Below, piece by piece: positions 5,479 through 19,170 of a stretch of 64,000 nt of DNA. The stretch's first letter is position 1; each line of letters opens with the position of its first letter. The notes below the pieces were generated by a model. That model saw nothing but the letters and a program-made list of their open reading frames with translations. It was not told the DNA's origin and did no database searches. A program made the translations under genes and the position numbers. The DNA comes from Maribacter zhoushanensis (GTDB taxonomy: Bacteria; Bacteroidota; Bacteroidia; Flavobacteriales; Flavobacteriaceae), in contig NZ_JARKMR010000002.1 of NCBI RefSeq assembly GCF_029350975.1, positions 620,001-684,000 on the forward strand, written 5' to 3'.

Positions 5479-8400
5479 ATGAGAACAAACAAACTTATAA
5501 GATTACTGCTTGCAGTAATGCTTTTTTCAAGCATTACCAGCGCGACGGCAGCTGATGAACTGAAAGAAAATGTAACTCTAAGCGAGTTTCTTAACGAAAT
5601 TAGTGCAAAACATGAGGTTTATTTTACCTACAACCCGGCACTAGTATCGTCTACCAGCTTAAACCCGGAGGAATACAAATTCCCAGTGCTAGATAAAATC
5701 ATCAACAAACTAGAACGCAAGACTAGTTTTGATTTTGAATATCTAGGTAATAAATATTATGTGGTATACCATAAAAAGACGGAAAGAGCTAAAGTTCTTA
5801 AAATCAATTCTACCACAAACGGTATTACGGCAATGACTTTGAATAAAAAAATTCAAAATAGTATTACCGGTAAAGTAACTGATGATTCTGGTATGCCATT
5901 GGCAGGTGTTAACATTGTTGAAAAAGGAACAACAAACGGTACTACTTCTGACTTCGATGGTAACTATACCATTAATGTATCGAGTGACACTAAACTTGTA
6001 TTTAGCTATATAGGATTTGCAACACAAGAAGTATCTACAGCAGGAAAAAGTACCATTAACGTACAACTATCCGAGGGTATGCAACTAGATGAATTTATCG
6101 TAGTTGGATCACGTACGGCACCTAGAAGTAATGCAGACACGCCATTACCTGTAGATGTTATTGGTGCTAAAGATTTAAGCTCAACAGGTCAAGCTACTTT
6201 TGATAAAGCATTACAGTATAAAATACCATCTTTTAATACGGTACAAACTCCTGTAAATGATGCAACATCTTTATTGGATCCATATGAAATTAGAAACATG
6301 GGACCATCTAGAACATTAATCTTAATTAATGGTAAGCGTAAGAATTTAAGTGCTTTATTATATACACAAACATCTCCTGGCCGTGGTGAAACAGGTGCTG
6401 ATATCTCAGCTATACCAACAGATGCGATTAAAAGAGTTGAAATTTTACGTGACGGTGCTTCTGCCCAATATGGTTCTGATGCTATAGCAGGTGTAATGAA
6501 CATTATCCTTAAAGATTCTCCTAATGATGGATCCGCTACAATAAGAACAGGTATTACTTCTGAAGGTGACGGTGAAATGTTCGGTGTTTCAGTAAATAAC
6601 GGATCATCTATTGGTGAAGACAAAGGTTTCATAAACTATACCGTTGATTTATCAAAAGTAAACCAAGCCAATAGACCAGGCACAGTTGATGCTGCTGGTG
6701 AAGCTGGTGATTTTGGAGCGGATATTGCTGATGTTCAAGAATTTTTATCTAGACGCCCAGATGCAGGTAATATTAATGGTTCTCCTGAAACTGCCGCAGC
6801 TAAATTCTCATTGAATTTAGGTTATGACCTAAGTGAAAACACTTCTCTTTATGGTAATGCAGCTTATGTCTACAAGGCAGTAAATAGTTTTGCAAACTAC
6901 AGAACTCCATATTGGAGAACGGTTGAGGAATATCCTTACTTGGCAGACTTTTTTCCTGGCGAAAACCCAAACAACGCAGGTGGTTATGACGGTTACTTAC
7001 CAACATTTGAAGGTTTATTAAGTGACTATAATGCTACAATAGGGTTCAAATCGACTATAAATGATTGGAATATTGATGCTAGTTTTACAACAGGTGGAAA
7101 CTTACAAACTTATAAAGTTAACAATACACACAATAGAAACATTGTATATTCTCCATCAGTATTCATAGATGCAAATGGAAATGGATCTGTTGATGATGGT
7201 GAAATTACAGAAGGATCGGAACTATATAGAGAAAACAGTCAGCAATCATTTGATCCAGGAGGAACAAGATTCTCTCACAATGTTGGAAACATTGATATTT
7301 CAAGATTATTATCTGATAAAGTAAGCATTGGTGTTGGTGCCGAGTTCAGAACCGAGACTTTTGAAATCATAGAAGGTGAATTAGCTTCTTATGATGGTGG
7401 TGGTGCAGATTCATTTGCAGGTGCTTCTCCTCAAAACTCAGGAAAGTTCAACCGTTATAACATTGGTGGATATTTAAGTTTAGATTATGATGTATCTGAT
7501 GCTTTTTTATTAAGCGGAACTATCAGAACAGAAAATTACTCTGATTTTGGTAACACATTTATTTATAAGTTCAGTTCTCGCTACAAGTTTAGTGATGCAT
7601 TTACATTAAGAGGTTCTATATCTTCAGGATTTAGAGCTCCTACCCTACACCAAATTTATACGCAAAAAGCGCAGTATAGCTTTGTACCAGGTCAAGGTAT
7701 ACAAGTTGGTGGTTTAATCAACAATGTATCTACACAAGCTAAATTATTGGGTATACCTCAATTAGATGCTGAAACATCTACAAACTTTACAGTTGGTTTT
7801 GGTGGTAAAATTTCTAAGTTTAGCTATACTTTTGATTACTATAATATTGCTGTAAAAGACAGAATTGTTTTAGGAAATGAAATTGGAGGTAGCGGAGATC
7901 CAACAAATCCGTTAGACATTCTTTTAGCAAACAACAACTTAAGTGATGTTAGTTTCTTTTCTAATGCCATTGATACAAAAACCTCTGGTGTAGATGTAGT
8001 TCTTGCATATAAAGGAATAGAAATTGGAGAAGGTAGCTTAGACTTAAATTTATCTGGTAACTATACTATACAGAATGAACTTGACGGACCTGTAAAGGAC
8101 ATTGACTTAGTTGCAAACTCTGGTCAGTCTGTAGTAAACCAAACACAAGAAGCATTGTTTTTTACTTCAAGACCTAAAACAAAATGGATTTTAGGAGCAA
8201 ATTATGAAATTAACAAATTCGGTTTCTCTTTAAACAATACGTTATTTGGTAAAACAAGCTTTTTCCAACAAGGTTTAAGTACTGATGCAAATGGTAATTT
8301 CAACCTTGGTACTGAATTTGATCCTAAAGTAGTTACTGATTTGGGTGTTAATTTTAGTGCTTCAGAGAAGTTAACGATAGCACTTAACATCAACAACTTG

Positions 8401-8595
8401 TTAAATGTATTACCTGAGTGGAATTTTGTTTCTCAGAATGCTGCAGGTGATGCTATTTTGGCTGATCCAGCACAGACACAAACACAATCTAACTTGATAA
8501 CTTTCAACCAACGTTATTCTCAAATGACGTATGATGGTTACCATTTTAGCCAACTAGGTACAATGTTCAACCTATCGTTGAATTATAAATTTTAG
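5479..8595 (+). CDS. TonB-dependent receptor with STN signalling domain
   Basis: A 1038-residue outer-membrane transporter. After a signal peptide ending near ATAA, residues about 28-95 form a secretin/TonB short N-terminal (STN) domain, which signals to FecR. A carboxypeptidase-regulatory-like domain follows at about 130-200 (I-T-G-K-V-T-D-D-S-G-M-P-L-A-G-V-N). A plug (G-P-S-R-T-L-I-L-I-N-G-K-R) and a 22-strand type barrel ending in aromatic residues (L-N-Y-K-F) complete it. No SusD gene follows, so a glycan SusCD system is not supported. The ligand is unknown. Confidence 0.9.
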   Translation: MRTNKLIRLLLAVMLFSSITSATAADELKENVTLSEFLNEISAKHEVYFTYNPALVSSTSLNPEEYKFPVLDKIINKLERKTSFDFEYLGNKYYVVYHKKTERAKVLKINSTTNGITAMTLNKKIQNSITGKVTDDSGMPLAGVNIVEKGTTNGTTSDFDGNYTINVSSDTKLVFSYIGFATQEVSTAGKSTINVQLSEGMQLDEFIVVGSRTAPRSNADTPLPVDVIGAKDLSSTGQATFDKALQYKIPSFNTVQTPVNDATSLLDPYEIRNMGPSRTLILINGKRKNLSALLYTQTSPGRGETGADISAIPTDAIKRVEILRDGASAQYGSDAIAGVMNIILKDSPNDGSATIRTGITSEGDGEMFGVSVNNGSSIGEDKGFINYTVDLSKVNQANRPGTVDAAGEAGDFGADIADVQEFLSRRPDAGNINGSPETAAAKFSLNLGYDLSENTSLYGNAAYVYKAVNSFANYRTPYWRTVEEYPYLADFFPGENPNNAGGYDGYLPTFEGLLSDYNATIGFKSTINDWNIDASFTTGGNLQTYKVNNTHNRNIVYSPSVFIDANGNGSVDDGEITEGSELYRENSQQSFDPGGTRFSHNVGNIDISRLLSDKVSIGVGAEFRTETFEIIEGELASYDGGGADSFAGASPQNSGKFNRYNIGGYLSLDYDVSDAFLLSGTIRTENYSDFGNTFIYKFSSRYKFSDAFTLRGSISSGFRAPTLHQIYTQKAQYSFVPGQGIQVGGLINNVSTQAKLLGIPQLDAETSTNFTVGFGGKISKFSYTFDYYNIAVKDRIVLGNEIGGSGDPTNPLDILLANNNLSDVSFFSNAIDTKTSGVDVVLAYKGIEIGEGSLDLNLSGNYTIQNELDGPVKDIDLVANSGQSVVNQTQEALFFTSRPKTKWILGANYEINKFGFSLNNTLFGKTSFFQQGLSTDANGNFNLGTEFDPKVVTDLGVNFSASEKLTIALNINNLLNVLPEWNFVSQNAAGDAILADPAQTQTQSNLITFNQRYSQMTYDGYHFSQLGTMFNLSLNYKF

Positions 8596-8613
8596 TTTTG
8601 ATTTAGTTTATTT

Positions 8614-8648
8614 AAAAAAAGCTACCTATTGATTTAGGTAGCTTTTTT
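8614..8648 (+). terminator. Rho-independent terminator after the TonB receptor
   Basis: The inverted repeat GCTACCTA/TAGGTAGC around a short ATTGATT loop is flanked by an A run on the left and a T run on the right. It lies 19 bases after the receptor stop. Confidence 0.8.
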
Positions 8649-8765
8649 CATTTAATATAAGTATGTTAAGTGATTTAAAATCTATTACTGCATATTTAAC
8701 ACAGAACGCTTTTAATTTCACCTACAGGAAAAGACCAATTCAAAAAAGGTCCTAATAAATACAAT

Positions 8766-9116
8766 TTACTCCGGGTGCATAAAACGTTGCTTTGCTAAAA
8801 GCACTTCTTCTGTTTCTACATTATCATCATCTGGTACACAACAATCTACCGGACAAACAGCGGCACACTGTGGTTCTTCATGAAAGCCCATACATTCTGT
8901 ACATTTATCTGGTGCTATATAATATACTTCATCACTAATAGGTTCTTGAACATCATTGGCATCAACTTCTTTACCATCTGGCAATACAACATTACCATCC
9001 AAAGAAGTACCGTCGGCATATCTCCATTCATCTGCTCCTTCATATATTGCGGTATTAGGACATTCTGGTTCACAAGCCCCACAATTAATACATTCGTCTG
9101 TTATTATAATTGCCAT
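8766..9116 (-). CDS. 2[4Fe-4S] ferredoxin
   Basis: A small soluble electron carrier of 116 residues. The first cluster motif, C-x2-C-x2-C-x3-C-P, is at residues 10-20. The second is C-x2-C-x8-C-x3-C-P followed by V-D-C-C near 73-92. The enlarged loop between cysteines two and three of the second motif, and the C-terminal extension, are typical of the Allochromatium-type (Alvin) ferredoxins. A roughly 50-residue acidic insert separates the motifs. It is transcribed divergently from the acyl-CoA reductase gene. No dedicated redox partner is encoded nearby except possibly that enzyme. Confidence 0.9.
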
Positions 9117-9134
9117 AATTTCTTCTACGTTAAA

Positions 9135-9156
9135 ATGCCCAAAAAAGAACGGGCAT
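9135..9156. repeat. Inverted repeat in the ferredoxin/LuxC-like divergent region
   Basis: ATGCCC at 9135-9140 and GGGCAT at 9151-9156 form a six-base-pair hairpin with a 10-base A-rich loop. It falls in the predicted 5' leader of the ferredoxin transcript. It could be an operator or an mRNA hairpin. Confidence 0.35.
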
Positions 9157-9159
9157 GCT

Positions 9160-9167
9160 TATTTTTG
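9160..9167 (+). promoter_or_regulatory. Possible -7 box for the LuxC-like gene
   Basis: TATTTTTG matches TAnnTTTG exactly and lies 38 bases before the ATG at 9206. No TTG is seen at the usual upstream distance. It almost abuts the opposing ferredoxin -7 box. Confidence 0.3.
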
Positions 9168-9169
9168 CA

Positions 9170-9201
9170 CAAAGGTAATTCCTAGTGAACTAGTATACAA
9201 A
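9170..9201 (-). promoter_or_regulatory. Bacteroidota promoter for the ferredoxin gene
   Basis: On the minus strand, TTTG at 9201-9198, a 20-base spacer and TACCTTTG at 9177-9170 give an exact match to the TTTG / TAnnTTTG consensus. Transcription would start near 9165, giving a leader of roughly 48 bases. Confidence 0.6.
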
Positions 9202-9205
9202 TATA

Positions 9206-10270
9206 ATGACCCATAGCAACCCTAGTATAGAAGCTTTTGTTAAACTTGGAAATTTTCTGAGAACATTTTGTGATTTAGTCACAACTAATACCATTTCTGA
9301 GCATTTAAATGACAAATGGATTGAACGATTTAAAACTGAAGCCGAAAGAGCACAACACTATAATGGGTGGTTTTCAGAAGAAAATTGTATACATGCCTTT
9401 CAGGAATGGGGCAATACGCTCACTAAAGAAAGTATAGACTATTGGTTAAGCGGTTATGATTTAGAATCCAATAAAGAAAAGACCGTAGCCTTAATAATGG
9501 CAGGCAATATTCCTTTGGTGGGTTTTCACGATCTTCTTTGTGTTTTGATCACCGGAAATAAGGCGCTGGTAAAACTATCAAGTAACGACCAAAAACTTAT
9601 ACCCTTACTTATTGATTATCTAACAGAGATAGAACCTATTTTTAATGACAGGGTAACATTCACAAAAGAAAAGCTTGAAAATTATGATGCCGTAATAGCA
9701 ACCGGCAGCAACAATACTGCAAGATATTTTGAATATTACTTTAGTAAGAAACCTAATATTATTCGTAAAAACAGAAACTCTGTAGCAGTACTTAACGGTA
9801 AAGAAACAACTGAAGAACTAACAGCTTTAGGTGAAGATATTTTTAGATATTTTGGATTGGGATGCAGAAGTGTCTCAAAAATATATATTCCAAAAGATTA
9901 CACCATAGATACATTCTTTAAAGCAATGTTTCCATATAGCGATATTATAAACCATAATAAATATGCCAACAATTACGACTACAATAAGGCTGTTTACTTG
10001 ATGAGCGAGTTTAAGATATTAGATAACGGTTTTCTTATTTTAAAGCAAGAAGAAAGTTTCGGCTCCCCTATTGCATCGTTATTTTATGAATATTATGATG
10101 ACATTTCTAGCTTAAAGTCAACTTTAAAAAATCAAGAAGATAAAATTCAATGTATTGTATCTTCTGGTTTTACTGAAGGTGAAATTTCATTTGGGAATAC
10201 TCAAAAACCATCATTAAGCGATTATGCTGATGCTATAGACACGGTTGATTTCTTGTTGAGAACATCGTAG
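9206..10270 (+). CDS. LuxC-type acyl-CoA reductase family protein
   Basis: A 354-residue member of the acyl-CoA reductase (LuxC) branch of the aldehyde dehydrogenase superfamily. These enzymes reduce acyl thioesters to aldehydes through an acyl-cysteine intermediate. The likely catalytic Cys is residue 220 in F-G-L-G-C-R-S-V-S. The nucleotide-binding part includes V-A-L-I-M-A-G-N-I-P-L-V-G and V-I-A-T-G-S-N-N-T-A-R. There are no other lux genes, so bioluminescence is not implied. It sits between a ferredoxin and serC, 70 bases before serC. The substrate is unknown; a short or special acyl-CoA is a guess. Confidence 0.85.
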   Translation: MTHSNPSIEAFVKLGNFLRTFCDLVTTNTISEHLNDKWIERFKTEAERAQHYNGWFSEENCIHAFQEWGNTLTKESIDYWLSGYDLESNKEKTVALIMAGNIPLVGFHDLLCVLITGNKALVKLSSNDQKLIPLLIDYLTEIEPIFNDRVTFTKEKLENYDAVIATGSNNTARYFEYYFSKKPNIIRKNRNSVAVLNGKETTEELTALGEDIFRYFGLGCRSVSKIYIPKDYTIDTFFKAMFPYSDIINHNKYANNYDYNKAVYLMSEFKILDNGFLILKQEESFGSPIASLFYEYYDDISSLKSTLKNQEDKIQCIVSSGFTEGEISFGNTQKPSLSDYADAIDTVDFLLRTS

Positions 10271-10340
10271 AATTAAATACTGTTACGTATAGACAAATCT
10301 TGAAAAAATCCTGACATTTGCATCCTTAATTTACACACAA

Positions 10341-11405
10341 ATGAAAAAACATAATTTTAGCGCCGGTCCTTGTATATTACCAAAAGAAGTATTGTTAAAA
10401 GCTTCTGAATCAGTTATGGACTTCAATGGTTCTGGACTTTCACTTGTAGAAATTTCACACAGAAGTAAAGATTTTGTTGCCGTGATGGAAAATGCAAGAT
10501 CTTTAGCACTTGAACTATTAGATTTAAAGGATAAAGGATATAAAGCACTATTTCTACAAGGCGGAGCCAGTCTTGAATTTTTAATGGTTGCATATAACTT
10601 ATTAGAAAAAAAAGCTGGGTATTTAAATACTGGTACCTGGAGCGATAAAGCAATTAAAGAAGCAAAATTATTTGGAGACGTAGTTGAAGTTGGATCTTCT
10701 AAAGATGAAAATTTTAAATACATTCCTAAAGGATATTCAGTACCAACTGGTTTAGATTATTTACACATTACCTCTAACAATACCATTTTTGGAACTCAAT
10801 TTAAGAAGTTTCCAAAAACAGATTGCTCGTTAGTTTGTGATATGAGTTCTGATATTTTTTCTAGAACTATGGATTTTTCTCAGTTTGATTTAATCTATGC
10901 AGGTGCACAGAAAAACATGGGTCCTGCAGGGACAACATTAGTAATTGTTAAAGAAGACATTTTAGGACAAGTTTCTAGAAAAATTCCTTCTATGCTTGAT
11001 TATCAAGTGCATATTGCAAAAGATAGCATGTTTAATACTCCGTCTGTATTTGCTGTATATACATCAATGCTTACTTTAGAATGGCTTAAAAACTTGGGTG
11101 GTATTGCCGCTATTGAAGAAGTGAATGAGAAAAAAGCTAGATTATTATATTCTGAAATAGATTTAAACCCTGTGTTCGAAGGTTTTGCAAATATTGAAGA
11201 TCGCTCTTTAATGAACGCAACCTTCAATATTACAGATGAGGTTTTAAAATCAACTTTTGACAGTATGCTAAAAGAAGCAGGGATTAATGGCTTAAACGGT
11301 CACCGCTCTGTAGGTGGTTATAGAGCTAGTATGTACAATGCCCTTTCATTAGAAAGTGTTGGCGTATTGGTTGATGTAATGAGTGAAATGGAGCGAAAAG
11401 GGTAA
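10341..11405 (+). CDS. serC: Phosphoserine aminotransferase
   Basis: A PLP enzyme converting 3-phosphohydroxypyruvate and glutamate to phosphoserine in serine synthesis; it may also serve pyridoxal phosphate synthesis. It opens with the family signature N-F-S-A-G-P. The Schiff-base lysine is in G-A-Q-K-N-M-G-P-A-G-T, and the end motif is G-H-R-S-V-G-G-Y-R-A-S-M-Y-N-A. Its 354 residues are normal. serA follows after 62 bases, giving two consecutive steps of one pathway. Confidence 0.95.
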   Translation: MKKHNFSAGPCILPKEVLLKASESVMDFNGSGLSLVEISHRSKDFVAVMENARSLALELLDLKDKGYKALFLQGGASLEFLMVAYNLLEKKAGYLNTGTWSDKAIKEAKLFGDVVEVGSSKDENFKYIPKGYSVPTGLDYLHITSNNTIFGTQFKKFPKTDCSLVCDMSSDIFSRTMDFSQFDLIYAGAQKNMGPAGTTLVIVKEDILGQVSRKIPSMLDYQVHIAKDSMFNTPSVFAVYTSMLTLEWLKNLGGIAAIEEVNEKKARLLYSEIDLNPVFEGFANIEDRSLMNATFNITDEVLKSTFDSMLKEAGINGLNGHRSVGGYRASMYNALSLESVGVLVDVMSEMERKG

Positions 11406-13998: not shown

Positions 13999-14056
13999 TC
14001 ATTTTTGTTAGGTTTTATTTAACATTCAGTTCTACATCTTTTAGTACTTTAGCTCT

Positions 14057-14362
14057 GTGAAAAAATCAATATTTACATATTTTTCTGTATTTATATTGTT
14101 TTGCCTTATGTTAATTAAGGTGACTTCTTTTCACGTTTATACTCATCAAGACAGTGCAGTCGATTCAATAGAGAATTGTAGCATTTGTGATTTGGCAGTA
14201 CAGAATCACAATTCAGATTTCACCTTTGTTGCTACTTTATTACTTATTCTTTTACCAATTATAAAATTTACCGGTAAAAGTATCTCACCTTTAGTTTTAG
14301 AGGCTCCTTCAAATTATTTCAGGTATGCCATATTTGGTAGACCCCCTCCTTTCCTAGGTTAA
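14057..14362 (+). CDS. Small Cys/His-containing exported protein upstream of a metal-type receptor
   Basis: A 101-residue protein starting at GTG. It has an N-terminal signal or anchor (F-S-V-F-I-L-F-C-L-M-L), then a short segment with H-V-Y-T-H, C-S-I-C and N-H-N residues that could bind metal. A second hydrophobic helix lies at about 57-70, and the protein ends in G-R-P-P-P-F-L-G. I do not recognise a named family with certainty; it resembles small DUF2946-like proteins seen beside metal-uptake or efflux receptors. It lies 67 bases before the ZnuD-like receptor and is probably co-transcribed. A metal role is inferred. Confidence 0.6.
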   Translation: MKKSIFTYFSVFILFCLMLIKVTSFHVYTHQDSAVDSIENCSICDLAVQNHNSDFTFVATLLLILLPIIKFTGKSISPLVLEAPSNYFRYAIFGRPPPFLG

Positions 14363-14429
14363 TACCCTATCCAAAGAATATATCGATATACATTTCTACA
14401 TCGATACATATACGCGCTAAACTTATATA

Positions 14430-16823
14430 ATGAAAAATTATTTATATGTTTTCGCAATCTTTTGTAGCTCATTTATTTGCGCTCAAGATTGCCATTCAAT
14501 TTTACTAGGAGAAATAGTTGATTTCCATGACAACAGTACGTTGAGTGGTGCAACTATTAATATCACTGGTAAAAATCTTTCTACAGTTTCTAAAGAAAAT
14601 GGAAAATTTACCTTTAAAAATCTATGTGATGGAGTTATAGAATTAGAAATATCACACCCAGAGTGTACAACCAAATTTGTTACGATAACAATTAATGGCG
14701 ATACCTTTTCAGAGATTAGACTAGAACATCATTTAGAAGAGCTAAAAGAAGTGAAGGTAATTGGCGATGTACCTAAAGCTACCAATTCTGCTCAAGAAAA
14801 TGTCTTATCCGTAAAAGATATAGAACGAAATAGCGGTAATAGTTTAGGCGATGCTTTAAAGAAAATTGCAGGTGTTTCAACCTTGAATACTGGTGGAAAT
14901 ATTGTTAAACCAGTAATACAAGGTTTAAACGGTAGTAGAATCTTAATTCTAAACAATAACGTACGCATGCAGGACATGGAATGGGGAGAAGAACATGCCC
15001 CTAACGTAGATGTCAATGCTAACCAGAACATTAGCGTTATTAAAGGAGCTGCTGCAATAGAATATGGTGGCGATGCTATTGGCGGAGTAATTGTGCTAGA
15101 ACCATTACCAGTGGTTAGAACAGATTCTTTATTTGGTAAAACGCAATTAAATTTTTCATCAAATGGTCGTGGCGGTAACGTTACATCTTCGCTGACCAAA
15201 TCATACAAATCTGGGTTATACATTAAAGCCCAGGGATCTTACAAAAAATTAGGAGATTTAGAAGCACCGGATTATATACTTTCAAACACTGGTATTAATG
15301 AAAGTGGTTTATCGTTAAATATTGGAAAACGTGATTTTGAAAAAGGCTGGGATGGGTATTACTCTTACTTTAATTCAGAAATCGGTATACTGAGATCCTC
15401 ACATATTGGTAACGTAGATGATTTAATTAATGCCATCAATAGTGATGTACCTAGTATAATAAATGATTTTACTTATGATATTACCCAACCTAATCAAGAG
15501 GTAACCCATCATTTAGGAAAACTTAGCTACTATCGTAGATTTGAAGGATTTGGAAAATGGACTACTCAATATGATTTTCAACAAAACAGGAGATTTGAAT
15601 ATGATATTCGTGTAGGTGATGATGCAGACAAAGCATCGTTAGATTTAAAACTAACAACACATTCTGTTTTAACCAATATTAAATTTGATGCTAAAGAAGG
15701 TTTTGACTTCAAAGTAGGTGCATTAGGTAGATATCAAACCAACTTTGCAAATCCTGATACAGGCGTAAGAAGACTAATTCCTGATTATGATAAATATGAC
15801 TTTGGTCTTTTCGCCATCGGTAGCTATGAGATTGATAATGATTGGACTATAGATGCTGGTGCTCGTTATGACTTTAGTAGAATAGATGCTAAAAAGTTCT
15901 ATAGAGTTTCCCGTTGGGAAGAACGTGGATATGATGTAGACTTTGCCGATATCATTATTGAAGATTTAGGTACTCAATTACTAGTTAATCCTGTTTTTGA
16001 CTACCATAATTTCTCTGGCACAGCAGGATTGCATTATAATTTGAATGATAAAGATCATTTACGTTTTAATTATGCGTACTCGCAAAGGGCTCCCAATCCG
16101 TCAGAATTATTCAGTGATGGTCTACACCATTCTGCGGCACGTATAGAATTAGGAGATTTAAGAATTAAAAGTGAAACATCATCCAAACTCTCAGCATCTT
16201 TAGAAAGAAACACCATTACCTGGGGATATACTGTTGCTCCATTTCTAAACAGTATAAAAGACTTTATACTAGTTGAACCAACAGGGGTAGAATTCACAAT
16301 TAGAGGAGCTTTTCCTGTATGGTCTTATAGACAGACTGATGCCGTACTATTAGGTGTAGATGCTTCGTTATATAATAATTGGTCATCACATATAAGAACA
16401 GATCATAAATTTGCGTGGGTAAGAGGAACGGATACTGAAACAGATACGCCACTTATAAATATACCTGCTGCCAATTTCACAAATAGCATTACATATACAA
16501 ACCCTAAATGGAACAACTTTCTTGTTAGCTTAGAAAGTCAGTATGTATTTGAACAAACAAGACACCCTGATAACATTGAGGTATTTTCTCCAGAACAGCA
16601 AGAAAATGTAATATTGGACATCAATACACCACCAGATGCTTATCACCTTTTATCACTGAACACCGAAGCATCTTTTACTATAAAAAATAAAAAAGATTTA
16701 AATGTAGGTCTTAGTGCAAGCAACCTATTAAACACCAATTATCGTGATTATCTAAATCGCCAACGATATTTTGTAGACGATATGGGCAGAAATATAAGTC
16801 TGCGCCTAATTTTTAACTATTAA
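14430..16823 (+). CDS. TonB-dependent receptor, ZnuD-like
   Basis: A 797-residue outer-membrane receptor. After a signal peptide ending I-C-A-Q there is a carboxypeptidase-regulatory-like domain (about 25-110). The plug (about 120-230) carries V-I-Q-G-L-N-G-S-R-I-L-I-L and Y-G-G-D-A-I-G-G-V-I. The barrel has a G-L-H-H-S-A-A-R-I-E-L-G-D-L segment like that of zinc receptors of the ZnuD kind. No STN domain is present, so it is not a sigma-signalling receptor. Zinc or another metal is the best guess, from similarity and from the Cys/His-rich neighbour; no Zur-like site was found upstream. Confidence 0.8.
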   Translation: MKNYLYVFAIFCSSFICAQDCHSILLGEIVDFHDNSTLSGATINITGKNLSTVSKENGKFTFKNLCDGVIELEISHPECTTKFVTITINGDTFSEIRLEHHLEELKEVKVIGDVPKATNSAQENVLSVKDIERNSGNSLGDALKKIAGVSTLNTGGNIVKPVIQGLNGSRILILNNNVRMQDMEWGEEHAPNVDVNANQNISVIKGAAAIEYGGDAIGGVIVLEPLPVVRTDSLFGKTQLNFSSNGRGGNVTSSLTKSYKSGLYIKAQGSYKKLGDLEAPDYILSNTGINESGLSLNIGKRDFEKGWDGYYSYFNSEIGILRSSHIGNVDDLINAINSDVPSIINDFTYDITQPNQEVTHHLGKLSYYRRFEGFGKWTTQYDFQQNRRFEYDIRVGDDADKASLDLKLTTHSVLTNIKFDAKEGFDFKVGALGRYQTNFANPDTGVRRLIPDYDKYDFGLFAIGSYEIDNDWTIDAGARYDFSRIDAKKFYRVSRWEERGYDVDFADIIIEDLGTQLLVNPVFDYHNFSGTAGLHYNLNDKDHLRFNYAYSQRAPNPSELFSDGLHHSAARIELGDLRIKSETSSKLSASLERNTITWGYTVAPFLNSIKDFILVEPTGVEFTIRGAFPVWSYRQTDAVLLGVDASLYNNWSSHIRTDHKFAWVRGTDTETDTPLINIPAANFTNSITYTNPKWNNFLVSLESQYVFEQTRHPDNIEVFSPEQQENVILDINTPPDAYHLLSLNTEASFTIKNKKDLNVGLSASNLLNTNYRDYLNRQRYFVDDMGRNISLRLIFNY

Positions 16824-16839
16824 TAATAATTACTAACAA

Positions 16840-17412
16840 ATGAAAACAGGTACAACTATGAAAAGAAACAAAGCATTAAAAACAGTTTTAGCATTAAGCT
16901 TAATGGCAACAGTAATGACATCATGTTCTAGTGATGACGATACACCAGAAATTGTAAACGAAGAAGAAATTATCACTACAATGACAGTTACCTTAACAAG
17001 TGCTGAAGGTACAGCAACATTACAATCTCAAGATTTAGATGGAGATGGTCCAAATGCTCCTGTTATAACGGCAGACAATTTAACAGCCAATACAACATAT
17101 TCAGGAAGTATAGAATTGTTGAATGAAACTGAAACTCCAGCAGAAGATATTACTGAAGAAGTAGCTGAAGAATCTGATGAGCACCAATTTTTCTTTGGAT
17201 TGACTGGTTCTATTGCAGAAGTAACTTATTCTGATGAAGATGGAGACGGAAACCCTATAGGTCTTGAATTTGAATTAACTACTGGTGATGCAGGTTCAGG
17301 TACCGTAACTATTACATTACGTCATGAGCCAACGAAACCAAACGATGGTACTTTGGCAGATGCAGGTGGAGAAACTGACATTGCTCAAACATTTACCGTA
17401 GTAGTAGAATAA
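16840..17412 (+). CDS. Acidic lipoprotein partner of the ZnuD-like receptor
   Basis: A 190-residue lipoprotein with lipobox V-M-T-S-C and a mature sequence rich in Asp, Glu and Thr. Segments such as D-L-D-G-D-G-P-N-A-P and D-E-D-G-D-G-N-P-I-G look calcium-binding. Relatives in flavobacteria are often labelled type 1 periplasmic binding fold, but I see no such fold here; the length and beta-rich pattern suggest a small surface domain. It starts 17 bases after the receptor stop, and an alternative ATG at 16858 is equally possible. It probably helps capture the receptor's ligand at the surface (inference). Confidence 0.7.
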   Translation: MKTGTTMKRNKALKTVLALSLMATVMTSCSSDDDTPEIVNEEEIITTMTVTLTSAEGTATLQSQDLDGDGPNAPVITADNLTANTTYSGSIELLNETETPAEDITEEVAEESDEHQFFFGLTGSIAEVTYSDEDGDGNPIGLEFELTTGDAGSGTVTITLRHEPTKPNDGTLADAGGETDIAQTFTVVVE

Positions 17413-17438
17413 ATTATAACTACAGCTTATTTTAAACA

Positions 17439-17471
17439 AAAAGCCTTTGAATTTAATTCAAAGGCTTTTTT
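17439..17471. terminator. Bidirectional terminator
   Basis: AAAAGCCTTTGAAT and its complement around a short loop, with A and T runs on either side, lie between two convergent units. Confidence 0.85.
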
Positions 17472-17475
17472 ATAT

Positions 17476-17949
17476 CTATTCTTCTAGTTTATACCACTCA
17501 ACATCTGAAAGTACCGCTCTCCTACTCACTTTTTTAGGAGGATAATTCGTTACCAAATAATTAATAATAATAGCTTCGTTCTCTCCTAAATCCCACAAAT
17601 TTTGGGTTTCCTGCATCCATTTAATGGTAGATTTCCATCTTTCTCCACTCATTCTATTTTGTATAACCAATTTAGAAGAATGGCAATTGGTACAGTTCTG
17701 TATGGTCTCTGTCATTCCTGGTGCATCTATAAATCCAGTGTTTATGTGAATACCGTTTTCTATTCTATCAAAATCATTATCATCGGGTATTTGAACAATT
17801 TCTGTTTCAGGCTTGTTAGATAGATTTAAATCTTTAACAAAGTATATCAACGCAGCAGCTATAATAGCTAGAATAACACCTACTAACCAAATCTTACTAA
17901 AAAGAACTTTAACATTGTGTTTTACTTTGTCATTATTTTGCTTTTTCAT
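17476..17949 (-). CDS. Membrane-anchored cytochrome c, sulfite dehydrogenase subunit
   Basis: A 157-residue cytochrome c. One N-terminal membrane helix (I-W-L-V-G-V-I-L-A-I-I-A-A-A) anchors a periplasmic domain with a single haem motif C-T-N-C-H near residue 86. Downstream N-R-M or W-M-Q may supply the Met ligand. It begins on the base after the stop of the sulfite dehydrogenase gene, so the two are coupled. It likely accepts electrons from sulfite oxidation and passes them to the respiratory chain, like SorB/SorU-type subunits. Confidence 0.85.
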   Translation of the reverse strand: MKKQNNDKVKHNVKVLFSKIWLVGVILAIIAAALIYFVKDLNLSNKPETEIVQIPDDNDFDRIENGIHINTGFIDAPGMTETIQNCTNCHSSKLVIQNRMSGERWKSTIKWMQETQNLWDLGENEAIIINYLVTNYPPKKVSRRAVLSDVEWYKLEE

Positions 17950-19170
17950 CTAGGTGATTTTTACAGCTATTCTATGACAAGCGTTATTTAAATACCCTTT
18001 AGGATTCCATCCGGGTAGTAACATTGGCTGACCTACTCCGTTTTTATCGGTAGCTTTTGCCCAAACTTCATAATACCCTTCTTGCGGAAATGAAATAGTT
18101 GCAGAGAAATGTTGCCAAGCCAATCTATTGACAGGTTTTTCTATTGTACACGTTTTCCAAGTAGCGCCAAAATCTATAGAATATTCCATTTTAGTAACTT
18201 CTAACTCACCTGCCCAAGCATGCCCTCTAATATTTAATTTTTTTCCTTTGGATAATGTAGCACCAGATTTAGGATATGTAATTAAAGATTTAACCGGCAT
18301 TGATTCTATAATACACATATCTTCATCTGTTACTTTTTCCCCAGGGGCTACTGGTTTACAAGGCACTCTATAAGCAGTACCGGTCATTTTTGTACCATCG
18401 TGAACTATATTTCTAATGCTTATGCGTTTCAGCCATTTGCCTGAAACAGATGCTGGCCACCCACCTGCAATTACACGCAATGGATAACCGTGTGCTAAAG
18501 GAATATCTTCTCCGTTCATTTTGAAGGCTAATATAGTTTCATCTTGTAGAGCCTTAGCCATTGGTGCTCCTCTAGAAATGGGTTCCTTATTTGGGTCTCT
18601 ACTAAGATGAATATCAGCTGCATGATAACCAAAGTAAACAGCATCGTCTTTGATACCGACATCTTCTAAAACATCGCGTAGTCTAACACCTGTCCAATTG
18701 GCGCAATAAACCGCACCTATAGTCCATTGGTTTCCCTTAGCAGGCGGATCAAATTCACTTCTACCATTACCACCACATTCAAGTGTCAATTGATAAGAAT
18801 GATGTTTAAACTTTGATTTTAACTCTGCGAGTGAATATGTTTTTGTTTGTTTTACAGACTCCCCATCAATGGTAAGTGTCCAATTTTCTATATCTATTAC
18901 CTCAGGAATGAGTCCGTTATTTCTAATGAAAATAGATTTATTGGGAGTTACTTTATCATCTAAAAGGTGGGCTTGCGCCTCTATATTCCAAGGTTTGTCA
19001 TTTAAAATGACCATACCTTTATCCTTATCAAATAATTTAAAGGGATTATTATCTTGCAAGGCTACAGGTGTGTAACCTTCTGGCATTAATTCTTTAAAAA
19101 CGATATCTACTCCTAGTAAAGCTGCTAGACCACCTAAACTAGATTTTGAAACAAAACTTCTTCTCTTCAA
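17950..19170 (-). CDS. Sulfite dehydrogenase, molybdenum-cofactor subunit
   Basis: A 406-residue sulfite oxidase-family enzyme that would oxidise sulfite to sulfate in the periplasm. The N-terminus has a Tat-type signal K-R-R-S-F-V. The molybdopterin domain carries the Mo-ligand Cys132 in L-E-C-G-G-N-G-R. The C-terminal dimerisation domain is present (about 290-405, M-E-Y-S-I-D-F-G-A-T-W). The cytochrome c gene follows with no gap. No sox genes are nearby, so the role is probably detoxification, or energy gain from sulfite released from sulfated or sulfonated marine compounds (inference). Confidence 0.9.
   Translation of the reverse strand: MKRRSFVSKSSLGGLAALLGVDIVFKELMPEGYTPVALQDNNPFKLFDKDKGMVILNDKPWNIEAQAHLLDDKVTPNKSIFIRNNGLIPEVIDIENWTLTIDGESVKQTKTYSLAELKSKFKHHSYQLTLECGGNGRSEFDPPAKGNQWTIGAVYCANWTGVRLRDVLEDVGIKDDAVYFGYHAADIHLSRDPNKEPISRGAPMAKALQDETILAFKMNGEDIPLAHGYPLRVIAGGWPASVSGKWLKRISIRNIVHDGTKMTGTAYRVPCKPVAPGEKVTDEDMCIIESMPVKSLITYPKSGATLSKGKKLNIRGHAWAGELEVTKMEYSIDFGATWKTCTIEKPVNRLAWQHFSATISFPQEGYYEVWAKATDKNGVGQPMLLPGWNPKGYLNNACHRIAVKIT

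Follow-up and report, generated by a model that had tools for sequence, protein, structure and literature searches.

Do the three consecutive genes found in a 64,000-nucleotide (nt) stretch of the Maribacter zhoushanensis genome (contig NZ_JARKMR010000002.1, positions 620,001 to 684,000; the whole stretch is hereafter the window) form a metal-capture system, and how might their expression be controlled? They encode a small exported protein, a TonB-dependent receptor and a lipoprotein, and the closest named relatives of the genome belong to Maribacter (Flavobacteriaceae). A first-pass annotation had proposed that the products of all three genes cooperate in capturing a metal. The three plus-strand open reading frames (ORFs) do follow one another at short distance, as then described, with gaps of 67 nt between the first gene and the receptor gene and 16 nt between the receptor and lipoprotein genes. 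The operon is rather likely to be an outer-membrane zinc-uptake unit under nascent-chain control, in which the small first gene, hereafter the leader, is, by its sequence, probably a regulatory arrest peptide and not a metal-capture protein.

Related loci were taken from the best 80 of 283 genome contigs encoding a relative of the lipoprotein; some near-identical rows are left out of the alignments A4 and A5. The gene order given in the first-pass annotation is kept, receptor and lipoprotein genes being adjacent in 79 of these 80 loci (three in reversed order and four partial at contig ends), and the sole exception is L063, where no receptor adjoins the lipoprotein. Within the family, single-sequence search gives a lipoprotein match in 66 of 149 genomes, weak matches included; across the phylum, profile search gives one in 86 of 395 sampled genomes (a few Flavobacteriaceae among the 86 were not fetched). 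In all 76 readable Flavobacteriaceae loci of the 80 (L043, L051 and L053 are cut, and L104 holds a receptor tail only), the first gene of the operon is a small exported ORF that carries [R/K]-[P/G/A]-P-P one to six residues before its stop. Where the receptor gene comes next and enough upstream sequence is available, the motif is present in 72 of 72 loci, as RPPP (43), RGPP (19), RAPP (9) or KPPP (1), in leaders of 96-134 amino acids (aa) ending 22-230 nt before the receptor gene. As a control, the other 60-160 aa ORFs of the same loci were searched with a broader motif, allowed up to 12 residues from the end, and 10 of 1339 match: three are the leaders of L094, L098 and L108, six are plus-strand ORFs located just 3' of the lipoprotein gene, and one remains. 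The six small plus-strand ORFs, which end in RGPP, KPPP or RAPP (L069 6582, L070 6693, L073 6599, L088 6766, L090 6814, L105 6640), are probably second leaders comparable to those of L063, L200 and L226. The loci L094, L098 and L108 have the order leader-lipoprotein-receptor, with the motif present, and in L063 (Poritiphilus flavus, 5513-10611) leader and lipoprotein genes are followed, the receptor having gone, by ABC-2 genes with DUF3526 that are preceded by a second leader, of the RGPP kind. Since these arrangements are also headed by a leader, the leader comes first whatever comes next.

Two types of leader can be distinguished. RPPP-type (type A) leaders (n = 46) have invariant H26, H30, C41 and C44 and three invariant prolines, the Arg being kept in at least 90% of them. 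In RGPP/RAPP-type (type B) leaders (n = 31, L052 numbering), P24, C41, H48, H50, the Arg and the last two prolines are invariant, H31 and C56 occur in at least 90%, and many members display H, C, HxH and C in place of CxxC. An N-terminal hydrophobic segment is found in every leader of either type (46/46 and 31/31), and the approximately 50 residues ahead of the C-terminal motif are hypervariable. From the second Cys to the Arg, the distance is 49-53 in [RK]PPP leaders and 42-48 in R[AG]PP leaders with CxxC; in the window leader it is 51 (Cys44 to Arg95, with 50 residues between). The first-pass annotation had singled out HxxxH, CxxC and HN residues in the small protein: HxxxH and CxxC are invariant in the 46 leaders, HN is not conserved, and the C-terminal RPPP, absent from that list, is the decisive feature of the gene. 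Since only the His/Cys site and the arrest-type motif are conserved, at near-fixed spacing, the leader displays the anatomy of a nascent-chain regulator, and its proposed part as a metal-capture component is not supported. A match of the small protein to DUF2645 (27 bits for a cut-off of 25) was rejected as a match of the hydrophobic segment, the conserved parts lying elsewhere. A second hydrophobic segment follows CxxC in 17 of the 46 type A leaders, and that of the window leader (residues 56-72, 14222-14272) was seen by eye. The features of the locus are collected in the table.

Features of the leader-receptor-lipoprotein locus, in window coordinates
Feature	Position	Strand	Description
Imperfect dyad GTTAGGTTTTATTTAACA, candidate promoter element or regulator site	14007..14024	+	Upstream of leader, kept in relatives
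Leader ORF (upstream ORF, uORF), 101 aa, GTG start	14057..14362	+	Hydrophobic export segment, H26xxxH30, C41xxC44, R95-P-P-P near C-terminus
Codons of invariant metal-site segment, H26 to C44	14132..14188	+	Invariant in 46 sequences
Codons of R-P-P-P arrest-type motif	14339..14350	+	Three residues before stop
RNA hairpin within leader-receptor gap	14382..14405	+	Compensatory changes in Maribacter/Zobellia relatives
TonB-dependent receptor, ZnuD-like, 797 aa	14430..16823	+	CarboxypepD_reg-like + Plug + TonB barrel
Surface-type lipoprotein, 190 aa	16840..17412	+	VMTS|CSSDDD, immunoglobulin (Ig)-like beta sandwich, two DxDGDG stretches
Terminator-like hairpin closing operon	17438..17470	+	Sequence

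The two leader types have changed places over the same operon. On a tree of 57 receptors, six changes between types A and B are needed and well-supported branches force at least five; without the three long-branch rows (L066, L081 and L112), four changes remain. The sister receptors L060 and L067 carry different leader types. By this tree, the leader type in front of the same receptor has changed four times or more, and two leaders sharing little beyond the His/Cys site and R-x-PP appear to serve the same operon.

The receptor is, as proposed earlier, ZnuD-like, and no STN domain is listed in its domain search. ZnuD is its best match in the PDB with a profile (E 2.6e-21) as with the single sequence (8e-16), and it comes top in Foldseek and, tied with OprC, by fold Z (39.4 over 589 residues). 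The zinc ligands of ZnuD are D99, H100, E340 and H499 (PMC4557270). In HMMER alignments, D99/H100 align to E188/H189 and H499 to H566, a placement that assumes a chain numbering offset of +14 (own count), and these putative ligands E188, H189 and H566 are invariant in 57 receptors, the barrel of the window receptor holding H566-H567. Neither the NCBIfam cut-off for ZnuD (NF038289, 80.7 of 950 bits) nor that of the SusC signature TIGR04057 (13.9 of 46.2 bits) is reached by the receptor. Lone receptors found behind other leaders, 23-26% identical, display D-H at the plug place, and their barrel histidine is not the same. In the N-terminal domain (residues 1-104, 14430-14740), lipoprotein-linked receptors have invariant H33, C66, H76, C79, E99, H100 and H101, of which lone paralogues are mostly devoid; these residues may form a second metal site or disulfides.

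The lipoprotein N-terminus resembles a surface lipoprotein export signal, three to four acidic residues being found at +2 to +7 after the lipid Cys in 64 of 74 aligned relatives; the signal of B. fragilis is SDDDD (PMC5080379). Invariant residues include H115, H162, D65, D67 and many acidic ones. The AlphaFold2 model is a confident Ig-like sandwich (predicted local distance difference test score 88) with no clear relative in the PDB (best Z 8.2, within the usual background); weak structure matches to CopC/CrdA (Foldseek E ~0.1) were not used as evidence. The SusD-like role suggested by the first-pass annotation is unsupported at the fold level, and no SusD family is present among the listed domain matches. 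The lipoprotein may be a surface binder of zinc or of a ligand. Metal acquisition by the receptor and a predicted surface lipoprotein is the best reading of the second and third genes, and the earlier idea of a metal-capture cassette can be retained for these two, its extension to the small gene being unsupported.

The genomic context of leaders elsewhere points to the metal concerned. Within the genome of the window, the type A profile has two matches, namely the window leader and the leader of L130, and the type B profile has a sole match there, which contains stops (E 0.6). Around TonB receptors, 37 regions were fetched, and of their 375 small ORFs two carry the motif at the end, the L130 leader and a chance-like 57-aa ORF. 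The L130 leader heads an ABC-2 ATPase, a receptor and two permeases with DUF3526, and this operon immediately follows a Fur-family gene and has MerC and a FolE paralogue as neighbours. Of 14 control genomes, Caulobacter is the only one in which DUF3526 is found, and its Zur regulon comprises the receptor znuK and the ABC-2 system znuGHI (PMC4176598, PMC6103462). Thirty-one further leader loci were fetched (of 49 profile places, the lipoprotein-adjacent ones and the weak G016, G032 and G085 were not fetched): 14 head such ABC-2 operons, and 6 of the 31 have a Fur-family gene in the stretch. The leader of L210 ends in LPPP and was missed by the leader-calling script, and no leader was found in L203. 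When a profile of 11 Fur-family proteins is compared with the PDB, the best match is 4mtd, 'Zinc uptake regulation protein' (1e-11), presumably from E. coli, followed by the zinc regulator FurB, 2o03 (3e-11).

A palindrome, TGCAACNNNGTTGCA, is associated with Fur-family genes and with leaderless operons. With up to two mismatches, it can be found twice at the Fur-family promoter in L130 and in L218, and between the Fur-family gene and the leader in L210, L224 and L228; in L216 it was missed by one search, yet a copy with one mismatch lies before the leader. Beyond Flavobacteriaceae, 71 genomes were examined at the receptor/lipoprotein stretch, which is uncut in 69 of them, 28 with a leader and 41 without. 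Of the 41 leaderless loci, 14 carry the box (up to one mismatch) at the first gene, vs 2 of the 28 leader loci (Fisher p 0.0098); with looser receptor calling, the counts are 13 of 40 vs 2 of 30 (p 0.017). These p values are indicative, the genomes being related. In these counts, L304 is leaderless, though an RGPP ORF precedes its receptor, and ten uncut loci have no receptor called beside the lipoprotein, looser calling turning L338 leader-bearing. A Fur-family gene is also present in the stretch in L286, L287, L290, L291 and L310. In the 72 Flavobacteriaceae leader loci, no copy with up to two mismatches occurs. The presence of Zur or Fur sites in relatives had been put forward as a check of the cassette: a Zur-type box takes the place of the leader in part of the relatives outside the family. 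A Zur or Fur site in the window promoter was rejected, the TGCAACNNNGTTGCA box being absent there. Taken as a bare pattern, the palindrome is no commoner genome-wide than the reversed sequence used as a control (4 vs 5 in forward direction, up to one mismatch); its weight comes from its position.

Some other occurrences concern the same elements. In L229 (5411-10265), the only mismatch-free TGCAACNNNGTTGCA found in the genome of the window lies 24 nt before a 103-aa His/Cys-rich ORF that ends in FQPPKA and is followed by a large CusA/CzcA-like resistance-nodulation-division (RND) gene, named by eye; this ORF is possibly another leader-type ORF, before an efflux pump. In L224 (3903-4651), a leader stands beside a Fur-family gene and a perfect box, and the next gene is a small His-rich ORF, the receptor not being immediate. 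Of the type B profile places, 20 were fetched. Where an RGPP/RAPP leader is not beside the lipoprotein (L266-L285), it heads in 20 of 20 fetched genomes a TonB receptor 25-29% identical to that of the window; 15 of these stretches contain a FolE-like match and 17 an ABC ATPase match, and in the window, too, folE and an ABC ATPase gene are found downstream.

Taken together, the ZnuD likeness, the second leader, the ABC-2 context and the placement of the box indicate that the ligand would be the metal sensed by the Fur-family protein, and this metal, like the one that the leader would sense, is most likely zinc. How a leader may answer a metal is illustrated by CruR, the DUF2946 uORF of the Bordetella pertussis operon cruR-bfrG-bp2921, which has a CXXC motif (residues 90-93) and, three residues short of its end, RAPP (139-142). 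CruR controls the receptor gene bfrG: expression depends on RAPP and the copper response on CXXC, and this response is strongly weakened when five residues are added to the C93-R139 distance of 46 (PMC9426467). Translation arrest by CruR has been shown in vitro (PMC12992588). For the window operon, we infer arrest, zinc binding, the direction of regulation and transport as follows. When zinc is scarce, a ribosome on the leader would stall at the C-terminal RPPP, by analogy with CruR, and would keep the receptor and the lipoprotein expressed, either because Rho-dependent termination is blocked or because the 67-nt gap takes on another mRNA structure. The emerging, exported nascent leader would bind zinc at His26, His30, Cys41 and Cys44; once zinc-bound, it would fold or pull, so releasing the stall and switching the receptor genes off. 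The receptor would import zinc via its ZnuD-type site, and the surface lipoprotein would probably serve it by capturing zinc or a zinc ligand.

The metal and the cargo could be read differently. The same device might serve copper, with a CruR-type copper sensor leader and an OprC/CrtA-like copper importer, considering that CruR and CutF, the characterised leaders of the kind, answer copper, that CxxC and R[AG]PP at CruR spacing precede the same operon in other families, that OprC is structurally tied with ZnuD as a match of the receptor (Z 38.5 vs 39.4) and that a copper receptor family with CruR has been described. However, the E-H of the receptor plug matches the D-H of ZnuD, a Fur-family-type box replaces the leader at the same operon in part of other families, and leaders adjoin Fur-family, MerC or FolE genes in several genomes. 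Moreover, invariant His pairs such as those of the leader suit Zn(II), and we know of no copper-sensing member of the Fur family; copper is considered an unlikely answer. It is also quite unlikely that the substrate of the receptor is not free zinc but heme, iron or a metallophore. The best raw NCBIfam score of the receptor is for the TonB-hemin subfamily, far below the cut-off (127 vs 317), ZnuD itself was formerly annotated as a heme receptor, and a metallophore might act as a bridge to the same site, the receptor of L130 exceeding the cut-off of a siderophore receptor subfamily; against this stand the rank of ZnuD as top PDB match by sequence and by fold and the acidic-His pair of the plug.

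The leader, too, might be something else. A periplasmic metal chaperone or capture protein, in which RPPP would be incidental, is hardly credible: the export segment and the His/Cys residues would suit it, but in 72 of 72 loci R-x-PP is placed one to six residues before the stop, behind some 50 hypervariable residues, the Cys-pair distance is near-fixed and two leader types with little common sequence are interchangeable. A secretion monitor of the SecM/ApdA kind, freed from arrest by the pulling force of Sec with the metal site as a modulator or irrelevant, is very improbable; RAPP-like arrest motifs and export signals are described as common to Sec/YidC monitors, whereas the genes downstream of leaders are outer-membrane receptors and ABC-2 systems and no Sec genes, and the leader has four invariant His/Cys residues.

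Several points nevertheless weigh against a zinc-uptake unit under nascent-chain control. What the sequences show is the gene order, the conserved motifs with their spacing, the leader exchange, the relationship to ZnuD and the association with Zur-like genes and boxes, whereas arrest, metal binding and regulation by the leader are predicted. The characterised relative CruR senses copper, and in Bacteroidota RPPP is a putative arrest motif. In vitro, efficient stalling was not seen with most RAPP-like stretches taken from E. coli and B. subtilis proteins (PMC10987492), so that sequence context matters for arrest. At the receptor, OprC is tied with ZnuD in fold Z and the fourth ZnuD ligand, E340, is not placed in the alignment. 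The Zur call comes from context and modest profile scores, the ferric uptake regulator 2w57 being nearly equal (4e-11 vs 1e-11 and 3e-11). As for the box, the window operon has none, and no Fur-family neighbour either; it is not found with up to two mismatches at the Fur-family or MerC loci L207 and L209; 27 of the 41 leaderless operons outside the family are also without it; and it occurs in two of nine further Flavobacteriaceae loci, all of them leader-bearing, perfect in L363 and with two mismatches in L361.

Two non-coding elements of the operon are conserved among Maribacter/Zobellia relatives. Upstream of the leader, GTTAGGTTTTATTTAACA is present with small changes in 14 aligned Maribacter/Zobellia relatives including the window; this conserved dyad, GTTARGTTTTMTTTAACA, has no other mismatch-free copy in the genome and is distinct from the TGCAACNNNGTTGCA box. 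Between leader and receptor, an 8-pair hairpin has 96.4% of its cells paired in 14 sequences, for 12-45% in slid controls, and nine cells are changed on both sides; in the copy of the window, one of the eight pairs is A-C. None of 500 shuffles attains its covariation score, but 262 of them have at least as many pairs changed on both sides. Since the sequences are related, this covariation is support for the hairpin and not proof. Masking of the Shine-Dalgarno (SD) sequence through the leader was also considered: as the hairpin begins 19 nt 3' of the leader stop, it is not obvious that a ribosome held at RPPP would reach it. Further downstream, a SorB/SorA-like sulfite dehydrogenase pair (17476-19170), under NCBIfam cut-offs, was rejected as an operon partner: it is on the opposite strand, and a SorB-like match is found in a minority of the 80 loci, at variable distance.

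It can be proposed, with some reserve, that Bacteroidota control zinc through the ribosome and that families of exported zinc-binding arrest peptides (H/C site and [R/K][P/G/A]PP), sensing zinc on their way out of the cell, have repeatedly replaced the Zur repressor, or been stacked with it, before outer-membrane zinc receptors and ABC-2 systems. If so, control of the same operon would have moved from DNA to the nascent chain. The copper leader CruR is already known, as are, in bulk listing, RAPP/RGPP uORFs before TonB genes; the link to zinc, the RPPP variant and the exchange of Zur for a leader appear to be new. No zinc-responsive nascent peptide, nor such a combination, was met in the literature searched, which included few subscription papers and no bioRxiv preprints, and the authors of the CruR study mention that no riboswitch has been described for zinc or copper (PMC9426467). 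A zinc-sensing arrest peptide would extend ribosome-based metal control beyond copper. It would also account for the way in which many Flavobacteriaceae could control their ZnuD-like receptors with no Zur box in place, and would assign a function to a widespread, so far uncharacterised receptor-lipoprotein pair. The repeated exchange of leaders over one receptor provides natural variants for dissecting the metal-release switch.

The operon has parts in common with several known systems. As in ZnuD from Neisseria meningitidis, a plug D/E-H and a barrel His can be aligned; unlike ZnuD, to which it is 17-19% identical over the fold, the receptor has an additional N-terminal carboxypeptidase-regulatory-like domain with invariant His/Cys and a partner lipoprotein, and in the family the leader replaces the Zur box. 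BtuG/SusD-type pairs likewise associate a TonB receptor with a cognate surface lipoprotein, although here the latter is a small Ig-like sandwich in which no likeness to SusD or BtuG was found. With Caulobacter znuK/znuGHI, the other leader-headed operons share the combination of a TonB-dependent receptor with ABC-2 genes (DUF3526), or the ABC-2 layout; in contrast, the Bacteroidota operons are leader-headed, and homology was compared at the DUF3526 domain only. RAPP/RGPP small uORFs before TonB genes have been called universal in Gram-negatives (EMBO J 2025, PMC12992588). They have the same position, motif class and export signal as the present leaders; that survey used RAPP and RGPP, reports that its uORFs of copper-related genes were not found in Bacteroidota, and does not contain the words zinc and RPPP in its main text (PMC12992588).

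A close parallel is with CruR. In both cases, a small exported first gene stands ahead of a TonB receptor, as in the 76 readable loci of 76 (L063 without the receptor), CxxC is present (46/46 type A leaders, that of the window included) and R-x-P-P lies three residues from the end in the window leader. The Cys-Arg distance of CruR, 46, falls within the 42-48 of R[AG]PP leaders with CxxC, and a C-over-G stretch covers the 3' half of the leader and the gap (14190-14467), as over the Rho utilization (rut) site of CruR, which is weak evidence in an AT-rich genome. Unlike CruR, the window type has RPPP, RAPP/RGPP occurring in relatives over the same operon, an invariant His pair and a spacing longer by about five residues, the 50 residues between its motifs exceeding by more than one or two the 45 between CXXC and RAPP. 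The gap is 67 nt, vs 162 in CruR, and the third gene encodes a lipoprotein instead of PepSY_TM. None of 20 leaders scanned reaches the Pfam cut-off for DUF2946 (best E 0.012, 16.8 of 23.7 bits). By analogy, the leader would thus work like CruR yet outside DUF2946, and unlike CruR, which answers copper, its genomic context points to zinc.

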